From positions 1-38,186 of the forward strand of contig JADFZO010000022.1 in the NCBI GenBank assembly GCA_015232465.1: DNA of 38,186 nt, written 5' to 3'. The notes under the pieces were generated by a model. That model did no database searches. It was given only the letters and a program-made list of their open reading frames with translations, and was not told the origin of the DNA. Position numbers and translations under genes: made by a program. This DNA is from Desulfamplus sp. Its GTDB lineage: Bacteria; Desulfobacterota; Desulfobacteria; Desulfobacterales; Desulfobacteraceae. Positions within the stretch are counted from its first letter, which is position 1. Each line of letters opens with the position of its first letter. Of the stretch, positions 25,272 through 31,708 are shown in pieces.

Positions 25272-25360
25272 GTCTGAATCACTGATTAATCTTATTACAC
25301 AGATTTCACTGATTTTTTAATCTGTGCAATCTTTCAATTCGTGAGAATCCGTGATTCAGA
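25272..25360. repeat. CAGATT/TGAATCA-rich intergenic repeat, copy 3
   Basis: The scpA-meaB spacer contains TCTGAATCACTGATTAATC, CACAGATTTCACTGAT, AATCTGTGCAATC and finally GTGATTCAGA, the last of which includes the scpA stop codon (TGA, minus strand). The outer TCTGAATCAC and GTGATTCAGA are perfect inverted copies about 70 bases apart, so the whole unit could fold back as a long interrupted hairpin. Confidence 0.65.
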
Positions 25361-27470
25361 TTTCAATAATATTTAAGGTGCGATTAGCCGATTCAGTAAC
25401 CACAGTGCCCGGACCAAAAATATCTGAAGCCCCAGCCTGTTTTAGAAAATCATAATCTTGAGGTGGGATAATTCCACCAACCACAACTTTTATATCATCA
25501 GCTCCTTGCTCTTTTAGTGCTTTTATCAATGCTGGAACAAGAGTTTTATGTCCAGCAGCAAGGCTTGAGACGCCCACAACATGAACATCATTTTCAACTG
25601 CCATGCGTGCAGCCTCTTCTGGTGTCTGAAACATTGGGCTAATATCAACGTCAAACCCAAAATCAGCGTAAGCTGTGGCAATCACCTTAACACCTCTATC
25701 GTGTCCATCTTGTCCCATTTTGGTCAATAAAATTCTTGGGCGTCTGCCTGTTTTTGCCTGAAAATCTGCTGTTCGTTTTCTTAATGAGGCAAGAATCTCA
25801 GAATCGCCAAACTCAGAGGCATAAACACCAGAAATACATTGAGTTGTTGCCACAAATCGTCCAAAAACCTTTTCCATTGCATCAGATACTTCTCCAACAG
25901 TTGCTCTTGCTCTAACAGCTTCAATTGTTGCAGCAAGAAGGTTAGAGCCATTTGATGTTGCTTGTGTAATATTTTCTAATGCTTGTATAGCCCTATTGTT
26001 ATCGCGTTTGGCTTTTATCTCTTTTAACCTTGCAATCTGCTCTTCACGAACAGAATCAGAGACCTCAAGCACATCAATTGGTCGTTCATCTGCAATTTTA
26101 TACTTATTTACCCCAACAATTACGTCTAATCCCTGATCAATACGAGCCTGTCTTCTTGCTGCAACCTCTTCAATTCTCATCTTTGGCATACCAGTCTCAA
26201 TTGCCTTTGCCATGCCACCAAGCTCATCAATCTCTTTTAAAATCTTGCGAACCTCATCAACAATATTTTGAGTTAAAGACTCCACATAGTATGAGCCTCC
26301 AAGCGGGTCAACAACTGAGCAGACCTTTGACTCTTCTTGAACTATTATTTGTGTATTTCGGGCAATTCGAGCAGATGTTTCAGTTGGCAGACCAACTGCC
26401 TCATCAAAAGAGTTTGTGTGAAGTGATTGTGTTCCACCAAGAACTGCTGACATGCACTCCAATGTTGTTCTTATGATGTTGTTGTATGGGTCTTGCTGTG
26501 TTAAACTCCAGCCAGATGTTTGGCAGTGAGTTCTTAGCATTTTAGATTTTGGGCTTTTAGGATTAAATTTTGACATAAGCTCTGCCCACAAAAAGCGAGC
26601 AGCTCTAAGCATTGCAATATCCATAAAAAAGTTCATGCCAATACCAAAGAAAAAAGAGAGTCGCGGGGCAAAGGCATCAACATCAAGACCAGCAGCAATA
26701 GCAGCTTTTACATACTCAACGCCATCAGCAAGGGTAAAGGCGGTTTGAAGAACAGAGTCAGCACCAGCTTCCATCATGTGGTAGCCGCTGATACTTATTG
26801 TGTTAAATTTTGGCATATTTTCAGAACAGTAGCCAATAATATCAGCCACAATTCTCATTGATGGTGTTGGTGGATAAATATAGGTGTTACGAGTTAAATA
26901 CTCTTTTAAAATATCATTTTGGATTGTGCCTGTAAGCTGCTCCTGCTTTACACCCTGCTCTTCTGCGGCAACAATATATCCAGCAAGAATCGGCAGAACC
27001 GCACCATTCATGGTCATTGATACAGACATCTTATCAAGCGGAATCTGATCAAATAAAATCTTCATATCTTCAACAGAATCAACAGCAACGCCAGCTTTTC
27101 CAACATCGCCAAATACCCTTGGGTGATCTGAGTCATAACCTCTGTGGGTTGCAAGATCAAAGGCAACTGAAAGCCCCTTTTGACCAGCAGCAAGATTTTT
27201 ACGATAAAAGGCATTTGACTCTTTTGCAGTTGAAAATCCAGCATACTGGCGAATTGTCCATGGCTGGTGGGTGTACATTGTGGCTCTTGGACCTCTGACA
27301 AAAGGCTCAAACCCTGGTAAAGAGTCTTTAAACTCAACAGACTCAAGGTCTTTGGCTGTATAAAGAGGCTTTACTGTTATCCCCTCTGGTGTTTTTTTAT
27401 GTAAAGAGTCTAAAGAAGCACCTCTAAGCTCTTTTTCTGCCATCTTTTTCCAAGCGTCTAAATTTGACAT
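25356..27470 (-). CDS. scpA: methylmalonyl-CoA mutase, large/homodimeric type
   Basis: Adenosylcobalamin-dependent isomerase of (R)-methylmalonyl-CoA and succinyl-CoA. The catalytic TIM barrel covers residues ~1-560 ([44 protein letters not shown]). The C-terminal B12 domain has the base-off DxHxxG motif in GQDGHDRG with His590 as cobalt ligand, plus GVSSLAAGH and VVGGIIP. Both domains are complete, and no small MutA-like subunit is encoded nearby, so it should work as a homodimer. Its 704 residues fit ScpA/MutB. Start has AGGAGA upstream. The mce and scpA genes would be neighbours were it not for the inserted island at 27573-31191. Confidence 0.97.
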
Positions 27471-27523
27471 TTTAAGAAATCTCCTGATTGTTTTATTAAG
27501 GGTTATATCCTGACGATAACTAT

Positions 27524-27557
27524 AAAACTATATAGACGCATGGTCATGCGTCTATAT
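27524..27557 (-). terminator. intrinsic terminator after the SWIM/HTH gene
   Basis: Perfect 13-bp inverted copies, 27530-27542 and 27545-27557 (core GACGCATG / CATGCGTC), form a long stem. On the minus strand it is followed by AGTTTTATAGTT. It lies 15 bases after the SWIM/HTH stop codon and would separate the island transcripts from scpA. Confidence 0.75.
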
Positions 27558-27572
27558 TGCTGATAGATACCC

Positions 27573-28127
27573 TCATTTTTTGGTTGATTTACAATGTTCC
27601 GCTACCCATAGACAGGCTAATTTGGTCGCTCCCAACTCATGGTAATAACGGTTTTTCAACTCACTTGATTTAATGGATGATAAGTGCCTTGCACTCATAC
27701 CAATGCTTTCAGCAAACGATTTTTGAGTAATCCCCTTCGCTTGCAGCTCTTTCAGCAAATAATCTAATGTAACACCTTGAAGATAGAAATGAATATCCTC
27801 AAGAGTTTTTATTTTTGCTTTGGTCTTGGCAGGAAGGAGTTTGAATGCCTCCGCATTGTTTATGAAAGTAAAAGCTAATGCTTCACAATGATGGCAATAC
27901 CCATCACTTCCGATGTAACAACTACAAGCCGCATCAATGCCAGTATCAGCAGCTTGAATAGAAACAGTATAAGTCCCGTAATTCCCCTCCACCTTGGCTT
28001 TGATTTTTGTGTCTTGCCGAGTTTGTTCAAAAAATCGCCCTACATAGTTTTGGGCTTTGACACTGGGGGGATAAGACCAGCGTCTTTGGATAATGCCCTT
28101 GAGTTGTTCAATTTCTATTTTAGTCAT
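27573..28127 (-). CDS. SWIM zinc-finger plus helix-turn-helix protein
   Basis: A 184-residue protein of unknown function. The middle has a SWIM-type zinc motif CxCx(n)CxH: Cys68, Cys70, Cys78 and His80 (CSCYIGSDGYCHH). The C-terminal part (~120-152) looks like a phage-repressor-type HTH (LLKELQAKGITQKSFAES, then SARHLSSIK). SWIM domains bind DNA or protein, so a transcription-regulator role is plausible. It starts 17 bases after the Phd-like gene with AAGGA upstream and is followed by a strong terminator, so the two probably form a bicistronic unit. It is not a recognised toxin; its link with an antitoxin-type gene is the odd feature. Confidence 0.7.
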   Translation of the reverse strand: MTKIEIEQLKGIIQRRWSYPPSVKAQNYVGRFFEQTRQDTKIKAKVEGNYGTYTVSIQAADTGIDAACSCYIGSDGYCHHCEALAFTFINNAEAFKLLPAKTKAKIKTLEDIHFYLQGVTLDYLLKELQAKGITQKSFAESIGMSARHLSSIKSSELKNRYYHELGATKLACLWVAEHCKSTKK

Positions 28128-28144
28128 TTGATCCTTTTTGCAAA

Positions 28145-28387
28145 TTAATATTCACCAATTTTTGCTGATCCAATCGCAACCTCAATATCCCGGAACTCTT
28201 CATCTATAATCTTACCTTTACCTCTCATACATCCAAGCCATGACTCTTGTTCAGTATACGAAATAGGAACAATCTTTACTAAAAATTTTCCTTTGTCCCT
28301 TATTATTACAGGTTGATGAGAATTGATTACGGAGTTGATAACATCGTAAACATTATTCTGAAAATTAAAAAGCTGCACCTCTTCCAT
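28145..28387 (-). CDS. Phd/YefM-type antitoxin-like protein
   Basis: An 80-residue protein of the prevent-host-death family. The N-terminal half (FNFQNNVYDVINSV, then QPVIIRDKGKFLVKIVPI) is the DNA-binding, dimerising fold, and SWLGCMRGKGKI (~54-65) is a motif I know from Phd antitoxins paired with PIN toxins. The acidic C-terminal stretch would be the toxin-binding part. No PIN or Doc toxin follows it; the next gene, 17 bases on, is the SWIM/HTH protein. GGAGA precedes the ATG. It is therefore an orphan antitoxin or a member of a different kind of pair. Confidence 0.75.
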   Translation of the reverse strand: MEEVQLFNFQNNVYDVINSVINSHQPVIIRDKGKFLVKIVPISYTEQESWLGCMRGKGKIIDEEFRDIEVAIGSAKIGEY

Positions 28388-28440
28388 TATATTCTCCTTA
28401 TCTTATGACACAGCACTACGGCAACCAGAGACAACGATTA

Positions 28441-28487
28441 ACCACAAACCAACACGCCGTAGGGCTGTCCCCTAAAACGCTGGGTTA
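28441..28487 (-). repeat. 47-bp attC-like repeat, copy 1
   Basis: Shares 43 of 47 bases with 29376-29422 in the same orientation, 935 bases apart. On the minus strand it begins TAACCCAGCG and ends with a GTGTTGG core. It can fold with TAGGG pairing CCCTA around a GACAG loop, then CAGCG pairing CGGCGTG with single bulged G residues. Bulged bases and terminal AAC/GTT boxes are features of integron attC sites. It lies downstream of the PIN-toxin operon. No integrase is visible, so other repeat types are possible. Confidence 0.55.
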
Positions 28488-28511
28488 TGCCAATTTTTAA
28501 CTGTAATATTT

Positions 28512-28703
28512 TTAAGAATTGAATGTTGGAGCGTTTTTATTAGCTCTTTCATTTCGCCAATCTGAATATATTTTTAATGCTTCCCTGTTTATCTCTTCTA
28601 TTGTTTTATTTTTTCTTTCTTTATGAAGTTCATGTCGTATTTCATGTAATGCCCATAAAATTTTATCTTCTTTTTCGGAATAATTATTTTTATAAATTTC
28701 CAT
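28512..28703 (-). CDS. small charged protein paired with PIN toxin, possible antitoxin
   Basis: A 63-residue, strongly charged, helical protein. The ATG at 28703 is chosen because GGAGGT lies seven bases upstream. Its start overlaps the end of the PIN gene by 14 bases, which implies translational coupling. Charged helical residues (IRHELHKERKNKTIEEINREALKI contains the pattern) resemble small VapB-like or toxin-wrapping proteins, but no known DNA-binding fold is apparent. Genes in this position next to PIN toxins usually encode the antitoxin; here the order is toxin first. Identity is inferred from context only. Confidence 0.55.
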   Translation of the reverse strand: MEIYKNNYSEKEDKILWALHEIRHELHKERKNKTIEEINREALKIYSDWRNERANKNAPTFNS

Positions 28704-29184
28704 ATTCTGCACCTCCAAATAATTCCAATGAACCTATTCCAATAATTGGATAACCTAATTTAGTGTTGATTTCATATATTTTTCTTATCGGATTCATACT
28801 TACAATATGTTTGAAATTCCATGATGCCAAAGCGTCAATGCAATTAACAGATGCTATTGCTACATGACAGGCATCTTCTGGTTCAGACTTAGGAATTGCC
28901 CCTTTTCTCATATATTCATCTGCCAATTTTACAGCTTCTTCAGATAATTCAAGAATTTTAACATTATGATCAAATATCAAATCTCTTATATTCTGTTTTT
29001 TGATAAGATTCTCAAGTTTACTTATTTCTTTGAGTGCTATCGAACCAATATACAAATCATATAATGATGCTTTATTTTCAAACCATTTCTGGGTGATAAG
29101 CTGTCTTAATGGTTTTGAAGTGTCAAAAAAAGCACTTGGAATGGATGTATCAAGAAACAATTTGATCTTCTTTTCTTCGGTCAT
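28690..29184 (-). CDS. PIN-domain ribonuclease, VapC-like toxin
   Basis: PIN domains are Mg2+-dependent RNases; VapC toxins cut tRNA or rRNA. In this 164-residue protein, the acidic residues are Asp12 (LFLDTSIPSAFF), a Glu in SIALKEISK, the Asp in EPEDACHVAIA and the final polar residue in LASWNFKHIV, where Asn takes the place of the usual Asp. NxxH-type endings of this kind occur in a PIN subgroup that carries a DTSVIS-like start. The ATG at 29184 has GCAGG upstream and replaces a TTG at 29199. It follows an Rpn-like stub by 11 bases and overlaps the small gene downstream. Confidence 0.8.
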   Translation of the reverse strand: MTEEKKIKLFLDTSIPSAFFDTSKPLRQLITQKWFENKASLYDLYIGSIALKEISKLENLIKKQNIRDLIFDHNVKILELSEEAVKLADEYMRKGAIPKSEPEDACHVAIASVNCIDALASWNFKHIVSMNPIRKIYEINTKLGYPIIGIGSLELFGGAEYGNL

Positions 29185-29195
29185 CTTATACCTGC

Positions 29196-29354
29196 TCAAT
29201 GTCGGTTATTACTTTCACTCTCAAGGATTTCAAGAATTTTGATATTGTCATTAAGAAGTTCACTTAAAAAGCCTTCTAATATTTCAAAATTAGCCTTGCT
29301 TCTCAAGAGTTTTTTCATTGCCCAGTCAAAGCTGATTAGTTTTCTTTTTGACAT
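29196..29354 (-). pseudogene. N-terminal stub of an Rpn/PD-(D/E)XK-family transposase-like nuclease
   Basis: Only 52 codons remain. KLISFDWAMKKLLRSKANFE followed by LEGFLSELL and ILESESN is the N-terminus of the Rpn-type recombination-promoting nuclease (transposase_31 / PD-(D/E)XK) family, whose members are normally around 250-300 residues. The frame ends at a TGA just after ESESNNRH and the PIN gene starts 11 bases later, so the catalytic part appears to be deleted rather than frameshifted. It may be a dead remnant, or a short leader peptide translated with the PIN gene. Confidence 0.75.
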
Positions 29355-29375
29355 TAATTTTATCTCTTTATGTTG

Positions 29376-29422
29376 ACCACAAACTAACACGCCGTAGGGC
29401 TGTCCGCTGAAATGCTGGGTTA
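29376..29422 (-). repeat. 47-bp attC-like repeat, copy 2
   Basis: Second copy of the 47-bp element (four differences from 28441-28487). On the minus strand its outer boxes CTAAC and GTTAG are perfectly complementary, but the TAGGG/CCCTA inner stem has been lost by substitutions. It lies between the end of the nuclease gene (29450) and the Rpn stub, i.e. directly downstream of a gene, as cassette recombination sites do. Confidence 0.55.
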
Positions 29423-29449
29423 GAACTTCTGTACCAATTAAAATTAACC

Positions 29450-30298
29450 TTATCTGGATATAAGATTCTCAATATTGGTTAAAATAGCAGTTGCTTTATC
29501 AGATTTTGACTCTTCTGTTTCCCATTTAACGTCATCTTCAAATATTCTAACAACTGGCTTTAATCCTACTCGAGGGGCTAAAATATCACGTATAGAATCA
29601 TAAAAAGCTCTTTGCTCATCACGGTAAATAGGACTGTTGTCCCCTGCTCTAATTTGGTCTGATAAATTAATCCATCTTATCTTGTCAAAACCAAGTTTGG
29701 TGTCATCTGAATAGGCATTCAGGGCTATAGCACGTAATGGCGTAAAATGTTGTCGTTCATCAAATTCTATTGGTAGGTTAATGCTTGGAATAAAAAAATC
29801 AAAGGCAAGGACAAAATTCTTTTTCCCCTTAACCGTTATTTGTCTATGAGCCTGAATTGCATCTAATATCTTTAACAAAGATGGTTCTATGGTTGATTTG
29901 TCGGTTAAATCTGGCACAAAAACACCTTTTATTCTTTTCTCTATTTCCACATCACTCCATAAATTTAATAAAATCTTTCGTAAGGCTTCTCGTCTTATGC
30001 TTTTTATCTTATTTCTTTTCCCACCTGCTACATGTTGTTTTTCGTATATAGCGTTATTAAAGCCTAAATTTTGTAAAACGCGAATACTTGCCTTACCGCC
30101 TGTAAGGGTTTCAGGGTGGGGCATATGTCCAGTCGCAATTTCAAAAGCAAGGCGGATAATAAATTTAGCGGGCAACTTGTGTTCTTCATGGATTAAAAAT
30201 GCACTTCTTGCAGAATGGCGATTATCAGGTGAAGATAGATACTTTTCAATGGCTGCTGTTACATGCTCTTTTTTAATGAGTCTTTCATCAAAATCCAT
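29450..30298 (-). CDS. candidate restriction-type nuclease with ScoMcrA-like N-terminal domain
   Basis: A 282-residue protein. Residues ~10-82 (VTAAIEKYL, LPAKFIIRLAFEIATG, LTGGKASIRVLQNLGF) match the pattern of the N-terminal domain found on ScoMcrA-like and HNH restriction enzymes, which is thought to recognise modified DNA. The C-terminal half has a likely PD-(D/E)XK-like core: Asp167 (LAFDFFIP), Glu178 and Asp180 (PIEFDERQHF) with Gln183-His184, and a downstream DKIRWI strand. The usual lysine is not clear. It is preceded by an unknown gene 32 bases upstream, probably its partner, and both look AT-rich. A defence role is inferred, not shown. Confidence 0.6.
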   Translation of the reverse strand: MDFDERLIKKEHVTAAIEKYLSSPDNRHSARSAFLIHEEHKLPAKFIIRLAFEIATGHMPHPETLTGGKASIRVLQNLGFNNAIYEKQHVAGGKRNKIKSIRREALRKILLNLWSDVEIEKRIKGVFVPDLTDKSTIEPSLLKILDAIQAHRQITVKGKKNFVLAFDFFIPSINLPIEFDERQHFTPLRAIALNAYSDDTKLGFDKIRWINLSDQIRAGDNSPIYRDEQRAFYDSIRDILAPRVGLKPVVRIFEDDVKWETEESKSDKATAILTNIENLISR

Positions 30299-30330
30299 AA
30301 AAGCTCCTGTAATTATTTTAAATTTTTAAT

Positions 30331-31191
30331 CTAAATTGTAGTAAGTTCTTGTATATAAAAATGATTTTCTAAGCACTGTCTCAACTCAAATTGAGCTATC
30401 TTATTAGAAGATAATATATCTGTGATACTATCAAAAGCCTGAATTATAGAACTCCCTTCTTTTGTAGTAAAAACAGGACCTTCATTAATAGCACATGGTG
30501 CGTATGATATCCATTGATCAAATTGCAAACTACCTTGACGGGCAAGAATGTTGGCTGTAGTCATCTCCTCTTTGGAAAGATTACCATTACTTATGTTTAA
30601 TGACTTAATCATATTCCGAAGATCTAACTCTTTAAACTGCCATCTCTCTGTTGTTGGATGAAGTAGAATATGCTTGAATGCTGTAGTTCCGCAGGCTTTT
30701 ATAAAAGAATCTTCTGAAACTATAATATTTTTTCCAACCAAATATTTTTGTGCTGCTTTAAGTCCCATTCGATGAGAACGTAATAATTTAGCCAATCGTG
30801 AAGTATAATTTGAAGTATAATGTTCATGAAAATAATATAATTCATGTCGAACGGGATGGATAAAAAAAAGGCAATACCATATGATTCGATACTCTTCTTT
30901 ATGTGTTATATTAAACAATTCATTAAATTGCTGCTTTAATACTTTAAAATTACTCTGTGCTACTTTTTTAATAATTGGTAGAGTGATCCCATTCCAATGA
31001 GCTGAATGCATATTGAATTTAAACTGTCTTTGAATCCCATCTACTTTAATTTTCTTTTTTTCTATACTTTGAATAACATCATCGTAAGTTGAAAAATTTC
31101 CTGCCCATTCTGTGTACCTCTTTTGGAGAAGTGCGTAGCTTTCGGATATCTCATTAATCAAATATTGTTGCTGTGTGGTTAGTCTCGACAT
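30331..31191 (-). CDS. hypothetical protein upstream of candidate nuclease
   Basis: A 286-residue protein I do not recognise. It has no signal peptide; a moderately hydrophobic stretch (RIIWYCLFFIHPVRHELYY, ~103-121) is followed by many His and Tyr residues and is more likely buried than membrane-spanning. It is rich in Lys, Asn and Ile, in line with AT-rich DNA. It starts an apparent two-gene unit with the candidate nuclease. Such pairs are common in defence islands, where one gene senses or modifies and the other cuts, but nothing in the sequence proves this here. Confidence 0.7.
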   Translation of the reverse strand: MSRLTTQQQYLINEISESYALLQKRYTEWAGNFSTYDDVIQSIEKKKIKVDGIQRQFKFNMHSAHWNGITLPIIKKVAQSNFKVLKQQFNELFNITHKEEYRIIWYCLFFIHPVRHELYYFHEHYTSNYTSRLAKLLRSHRMGLKAAQKYLVGKNIIVSEDSFIKACGTTAFKHILLHPTTERWQFKELDLRNMIKSLNISNGNLSKEEMTTANILARQGSLQFDQWISYAPCAINEGPVFTTKEGSSIIQAFDSITDILSSNKIAQFELRQCLENHFYIQELTTI

Positions 31192-31222
31192 TGCATTGCC
31201 CTTATTTTTGTTCTATTCGTTC

Positions 31223-31257
31223 ATTAGCTTACCTACCCCAAAATGCTTAGTTCTAAT
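31223..31257. repeat. possible degenerate third copy of the attC-like element
   Basis: This stretch has complementary ends ATTAG and CTAAT and an inner CCCCAAAATGCTTAGTT that resembles the CCCCTAAAACGCTGGGTT of the copy at 28441. It lies between mce and the first island gene, exactly where an island boundary is expected. The similarity is weak and may be chance. Confidence 0.25.
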
Positions 31258-31303
31258 CATAATATTATCAAGCCTCTATGTTCATTAATCATAAAATTGA
31301 GCT

Positions 31304-31708
31304 TTAATCACGTTGGCAAAGCTCAACCAAAACGCCAGCAGTTGCCTTTGGGTGAATAAAGGCGATCTTTGCACCACCTGCCCCAATTCGTGGAGTTTCG
31401 TCAATCAGCTTGATACCTTTATCTTTTAACTCTTGCAGAGCCTCTTCGATATTTTCAACCCTGAATGCAATATGCTGGATCCCTTCGCCCTTTTTTTCAA
31501 TATATTTTGCAACTGGTCCATCAGGAGATGTTGATTCAAGAAGCTCAACTTCGCTCTCTCCAACTGGAAAAAAAGCAGTTGTAACCTTCTGGGTCTCTAC
31601 AGTTTCAGCTCCTTCAAATTTTAGCCCAAGCACGTCAGACCAAAAGCTCTTCCCATTTTCAATGCTGTTTACCGCTATTCCAAGATGATCAATTTTTGTT
31701 ATTTTCAT
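31304..31708 (-). CDS. mce: methylmalonyl-CoA epimerase
   Basis: Interconverts the (S) and (R) forms of methylmalonyl-CoA, feeding the mutase. The 134-residue protein is a single VOC-fold chain with two beta-alpha-beta units. Metal-ligand candidates are His8 (KIDHLGIAV), the Glu/Gln region in ESEVELLES, His78 ([10 protein letters not shown]) and Glu near the end ([10 protein letters not shown]). Length and motifs match bacterial epimerases. It is on the same strand as scpA but is separated from it by the 3.6-kb accessory island. AGGAGA precedes the ATG. The 153-base divergent spacer on its right shows no promoter I can name. Confidence 0.94.

Follow-up and report, generated by a model that had tools for sequence, protein, structure and literature searches.

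A ScoMcrA-type head domain joined to a Vsr-like nuclease domain in a probably defensive nuclease family with a recurrent nitrilase-like partner

Protein B, encoded on the minus strand of the window (the whole 38,186-nt stretch of DNA analysed), is a new member of a restriction-like nuclease family. It carries an N-terminal head domain of the ScoMcrA type and a Vsr-like PD-(D/E)XK nuclease domain, and it is preceded by the gene for an unrelated protein, A. The best explanation, to which we would give an even chance, is that B is a restriction-like, probably defensive nuclease of a two-component family in which the usual partner, a protein of nitrilase fold, has been replaced by A. The locus indicates a little-described, probably defensive nuclease family, and its interesting part is the recurrent nitrilase-like partner together with the apparent replacement of that partner here.

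Two genes in a variable insertion

The two open reading frames were present as the initial annotation had reported them, on the same strand and 32 bases apart in the order A then B. Protein A (30331 to 31191, minus strand) comprises 286 residues and protein B (29450 to 30298, minus strand) 282 residues. The sequence AGGAG (30304 to 30308, minus strand), located 5 bases ahead of the ATG of B, represents a good ribosome-binding site. B is a real gene because it is conserved, with 54-58% full-length identity to its relatives L002-L005. A has no homolog; nevertheless, its in-frame codon usage was ~4.7 sd above nucleotide shuffles and the best of the six frames, and on this basis A is probably coding. 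The G+C contents of A and B (32% and 35%) are below those of the flanking housekeeping genes. Promoter and terminator scans yielded chance-level signals only.

The region is flanked on the minus strand by genes encoding methylmalonyl-CoA epimerase (31304 to 31708) and the mutase (25356 to 27470). In G004, the genome of a sister species of the same genus, the site is empty and the mutase-epimerase gap amounts to ~70 bp. Different cargo was detected in the same spot of two further genomes, namely a large membrane protein in G005 and a PIN-type toxin-antitoxin pair in G008 (names read from the sequence). The empty site and the other cargo place A and B within a variable 3.8-kb insertion (27507 to 31303, no strand assigned), which also contains the PIN/antitoxin group. 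Of the toxin-rich island described earlier there remain a single PIN-domain gene, a single Phd/YefM-like gene and a fragment of a PDDEXK_2 (Rpn-type) gene; the remainder of the window, where identified, consists of chromosomal housekeeping and flagellar genes.

Several minor features were also observed in the insertion. Two copies of a 50-nt repeat (28438 to 28487 and 29373 to 29422, 90% identical) lie on either side of the PIN gene region, and in G008 two copies bracket the PIN/antitoxin pair found in the same spot (L103). An integron reading of these repeats was rejected, as the own genome contains three copies only. A shortened PDDEXK_2 gene of the Rpn transposase/nuclease type adjoins the PIN gene (29196 to 29390, minus strand) and represents an N-terminal fragment. 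The gene at 27573 to 28127 (minus strand) encodes a 184-aa protein that ends in an HTH_3-like part and contains a C-x-C...C-x-x-C pattern resembling a SWIM zinc finger; DNA 98% identical to this gene was found in the same spot of G005.

A Vsr-like nuclease domain in protein B

B was modelled with AlphaFold2 from 16 aligned sequences, yielding a confident model (pLDDT 89.6). The initial annotation would have been refuted by a structure prediction without a nuclease fold; a nuclease fold was seen instead. By structural alignment, the nuclease domain (residues about 97-282; 29453 to 30010, minus strand) matched I-Bth0305I (3r3p) with a Z of 8.0, Vsr (1cw0) with 7.7 and TnsA with 6.0, and AbaSI was a weaker, low-ranking match (Z 3.9). 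Foldseek alone gave no significant match for B. Z values of about 8 denote a moderate fold match, here in agreement with the motif D167...E178-x-D180-E-R-Q-H184 (29747 to 29800, minus strand), in which D167, E178, D180, R182, Q183 and H184 are identical in all 16 aligned relatives and D167, E178, D180 and H184 are invariant across many bacterial phyla. Asp167 and Glu178, the two residues named in the initial annotation, proved invariant in all 16 rows and part of a Vsr-type fold. EFDERQHF lies in this core as proposed, but at residues 178-185 of 282 and not at the C-terminal end.

Comparison with profile libraries pointed in the same direction. B scored 21.6 bits against Pfam DUF7255 (PF23913), below the cut-off of 27 bits that is exceeded by the relatives L005 (31.4) and L017 (30.2). 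PADLOC returned a weak mREase_II match (0.004) and no confident match to a curated model, and the PHROG matches were phage homing endonucleases (3e-5 and 1e-4). These sub-threshold matches accord with the nuclease fold of B. DUF7255 is uncharacterised, and no mention of it was found in the open-licence papers searched. Phage and plasmid searches for B as a gene of such elements gave only remote matches, to the nuclease domain. B is very probably a PD-(D/E)XK nuclease of the Vsr-like branch, for which metal-dependent DNA cleavage would be the predicted activity.

The ScoMcrA-type head

Residues 6-88 of B (30035 to 30283, minus strand) matched the head of ScoMcrA (5zmm) in a profile search (hmmsearch E 4.6e-6), and structural alignment of the two heads with VIA-align resulted in a Z of 8.7 and an rmsd of 2.3 Å over 68 residues. 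The relationship to ScoMcrA recognised earlier in the N-terminal part of B is thereby supported. However, the same domain had been taken for a reader of modified DNA, a role that this match does not bear out, whereas the head of ScoMcrA is a small domain published as "unknown function", and sulfur is read there by a separate sulfur-binding domain (PMC6224610). ScoMcrA, a type IV enzyme dependent on phosphorothioate or 5mC, shares with B the head (its residues 4-95) and contains in addition sulfur-binding, SRA-like and HNH domains. None of these three is present in B, in whose model head and nuclease fill all 282 residues; for HNH no Pfam match was obtained, the fold being PD-(D/E)XK instead. 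With B, the ScoMcrA head, which has no assigned function, gains a new testable context.

Two further groups of enzymes resemble B in the nuclease domain. The 5hmC-dependent PvuRts1I/AbaSI family has a Vsr-like PD-(D/E)XK domain as in B (PMC4157451), but the SRA-like reader of this family is absent from B, and domain order and partner differ. The Vsr endonuclease and I-Bth0305I have the catalytic-domain fold of B, to which B adds the ScoMcrA head and the E-x-D-E-R-Q-H motif, and the family of B adds nitrilase-like partners.

Heads of the ScoMcrA type were observed in other arrangements as well. In L044 the head adjoins a gene with a NOV_C domain, and in L048 (534 to 1583, minus strand) it is followed by ~250 aa with no nuclease domain between. 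The ~250-aa part may be a nitrilase-like remnant, although it was not significant in the profile test.

Nitrilase-like partners of the relatives

Reading the gene neighbourhoods of B's relatives revealed a protein of apparent nitrilase fold at 15 loci, either fused to the nuclease or adjacent to it. In L006, head, nuclease and CN_hydrolase form a single chain (Pfam CN_hydrolase 2.6e-11); two more fusions of this kind are L037 and L038, and in L012 the partner is fused on the N-terminal side. The partner is encoded directly upstream of the nuclease on the same strand in L002-L005 and L017, and directly downstream, again on the same strand, in L013, L014, L021 and L039-L041. This conserved partner differs from A and was invisible to the initial annotation.

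The partners sort into several groups, the profiles of which were compared with 15 reference nitrilases using 146 unrelated ORFs as control. The profile of the L004/L005/L012/L017/L039/L040 partners scored 35.3, that of the L013/L014/L021/L037 partners 43.8 and all partners pooled 51.2, compared to a maximum of 24.4 for the unrelated ORFs; four more ORFs of the control set, scoring 56-83, are true nitrilase-family Lnt proteins by sequence. For partner types t2 (L002/L003/L038) and t7, which includes L041, the nitrilase match was not significant when each was tested alone, and L002 and L003 are close relatives of the window's B. In a seeded alignment guided by the groups, which is supportive but short of proof, the catalytic Cys was aligned in every partner row shown, and the catalytic Glu in the L006 partner only. 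The catalytic Lys is kept in the L002 and L013/L014 groups, whereas the L004 group has Gln in its place. With the catalytic Glu mostly gone, amidase activity would be impaired in the majority of partners. Searches of solved structures with three partner profiles returned no nitrilases, and the nitrilase fold consequently rests on the aligned catalytic Cys, the comparison of profiles and the Pfam match of L006.

A tree built from the nuclease domains places B of the window in one clade with L002-L005 (100/99). The partners of these four belong to two different nitrilase-like groups, each located just upstream of the nuclease, which is the position of A. Searching the own genome (~86% complete) with the partner alignment gave no match, in a search run without a positive control. 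In at least five relatives (L008, L009, L010, L011 and L015), which come from Binatota and Deltaproteobacteria MAGs, the B-type nuclease is solo and has conserved housekeeping surroundings, which suggests domestication.

No description of such a nuclease paired with a nitrilase-like protein was found in the open-licence literature; an earlier description elsewhere is possible. Nitrilase domains are described as uncommon in antiphage defence, and the studied case is DRT1, a reverse transcriptase-nitrilase system acting in phage infection, which demonstrates that a nitrilase domain can belong to a defence system (PMC13275509). In contrast to DRT1, the B loci contain no reverse transcriptase, and most partners are devoid of the catalytic Glu, some also of the Lys. 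That a modification-dependent restriction enzyme can employ a Vsr-like nuclease is shown by PvuRts1I (PMC4157451). Both precedents bear on the B system by likeness only. If true, the pairing of this nuclease with nitrilase-like proteins across many phyla would represent a second nitrilase-linked defence system, and the mostly lost active-site Glu would point to a sensing rather than a catalytic role of the partner.

Protein A

No relatives of A were detected in Pfam, PADLOC, NCBIfam, PHROGs, PDB, plasmids, phages, IMG/VR or ~750 sampled genomes; the matches in all of these, three genome samples included, stayed below significance. As far as these collections go, A is an ORFan. Since it was found nowhere else, its adjacency to B is conserved in nothing searched, and the conserved A-B pair proposed initially, with absence of pairing in other genomes named as its refutation, does not hold by that measure. 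The profile searches and structure predictions suggested at that time for both proteins resolved B, but left A without a homolog and with a single-sequence AlphaFold2 model of pLDDT 38, which was discarded. The idea of A as a hidden nitrilase was not supported by hhalign, and a Chou-Fasman comparison was uninformative. A did not match the partners or nitrilases, yet low scores were likewise obtained for some of the true partners when a single sequence was used. As A has no homolog, its link to B rests on the 32-bp gap and on position. A is either a replacement of the usual partner or a passenger beside a B that lost its partner; judged from a single sequence, it may also be a diverged nitrilase. 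In the first case, the A-B pair would amount to a partner swap made by nature, from which the purpose of the nitrilase-like protein could be read.

Alternative explanations and proposed function

That A is an unrelated passenger, with B acting alone or having lost its partner and A being separate ORFan cargo of the variable spot, has a real but smaller chance of being correct. The uniqueness of A, the unrelated cargo in the same spot of sister genomes and the solo nucleases of the family agree with it, but A and B are on the same strand with a 32-bp gap in which no terminator-like site was found, are alike in low G+C, and A occurs exactly at the partner-gene position of the four nearest relatives. 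A modification-dependent, type IV-like restriction enzyme, in which the head of B would read a modified base or backbone, B would cut and A would be accessory, appears rather unlikely. Homology of the head to that of ScoMcrA, the PADLOC mREase_IV model, which matches the L038 head (1.4e-5), and PvuRts1I, which joins a Vsr-like nuclease domain to a 5hmC reader (PMC4157451), with AbaSI at Z 3.9, argue for such an enzyme; the head is not the sulfur reader of ScoMcrA, however, and B offers neither an SRA nor a sulfur-binding domain within its 282 residues.

The nearby PIN and Phd/YefM-like genes, the order A then B and the short spacing would also fit a toxin-antitoxin pair with B as toxic nuclease and A as antitoxin or inhibitor. 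We regard this as improbable, because A with 286 aa exceeds the usual size of a type II antitoxin, its slot is occupied by a nitrilase-like protein in relatives, and head domains of this type are typically those of restriction-like enzymes. That B, as a relative of Vsr or I-Bth0305I, serves DNA repair or homing and has no role in defence is very improbable. These two enzymes top the structural matches of the catalytic domain, and the PHROG matches are to phage homing endonucleases, but the head common to B and ScoMcrA, the nitrilase-like fusions in relatives and the patchy distribution in a variable island argue against it, and an intron or intein context was not seen.

The context of the family is probably defence-like, considering the insertion in a variable spot, the joining of a ScoMcrA-type head to an HNH nuclease in L045, and a relative on a Mucilaginibacter plasmid (L049, 4761 to 5447) neighboured by GmrSD (DUF262), Z1, PLD-nuclease and DNA cytosine methyltransferase genes. 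According to the partner-replacement explanation that we favour, B would be an endonuclease combining the ScoMcrA-type head with the Vsr-like catalytic domain, and its family would probably comprise anti-phage or anti-mobile-element nucleases that depend on a further component. For most relatives this would be the nitrilase-fold protein, fused or encoded adjacent; as the catalytic Glu is mostly absent, it would perhaps be a pseudo-enzyme that senses a ligand or infection and not an amidase. Here the unrelated ORFan A would take the partner's place immediately upstream of B, be cotranscribed with it and most likely restrain or direct it. The partner would hold the nuclease, or license it upon infection or entry of foreign DNA; the head would help to engage DNA, and nucleic acid of the invader or of the cell would be cleaved by the Vsr-like domain. 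The domain folds, the invariant active-site residues, the recurrent nitrilase-like partner and the location in a variable spot are results of the computations, whereas nuclease activity, the role in defence, sensing by the partner and concerted action of A and B are inferred. Whether A and B act jointly is close to evenly balanced. Counting against this explanation are the weak PADLOC match, the failure to find a homolog of A, partner types t2 and t7, which were not significant alone, and the solo nucleases. We tentatively propose, as a possibility and not as the expected outcome, that B and its relatives constitute a two-component defence family not described before, with a head/Vsr-like nuclease under the control of an exchangeable partner, usually an impaired-nitrilase sensor and here the wholly unrelated A.

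Two observations concern the surroundings of other relatives. The gene directly upstream of the nuclease/partner pairs of L039, L040 and L041 shows DUF2779, Cas4-like and RNase_H_2 matches, which were tested in L039, the genes of L040 and L041 being look-alikes by eye. In L007 (5791 to 8118), the B-type nuclease is part of a 775-aa chain whose C-terminal part is weakly similar to uracil-DNA glycosylase (E 0.046) and takes the place of the nitrilase-like domain.
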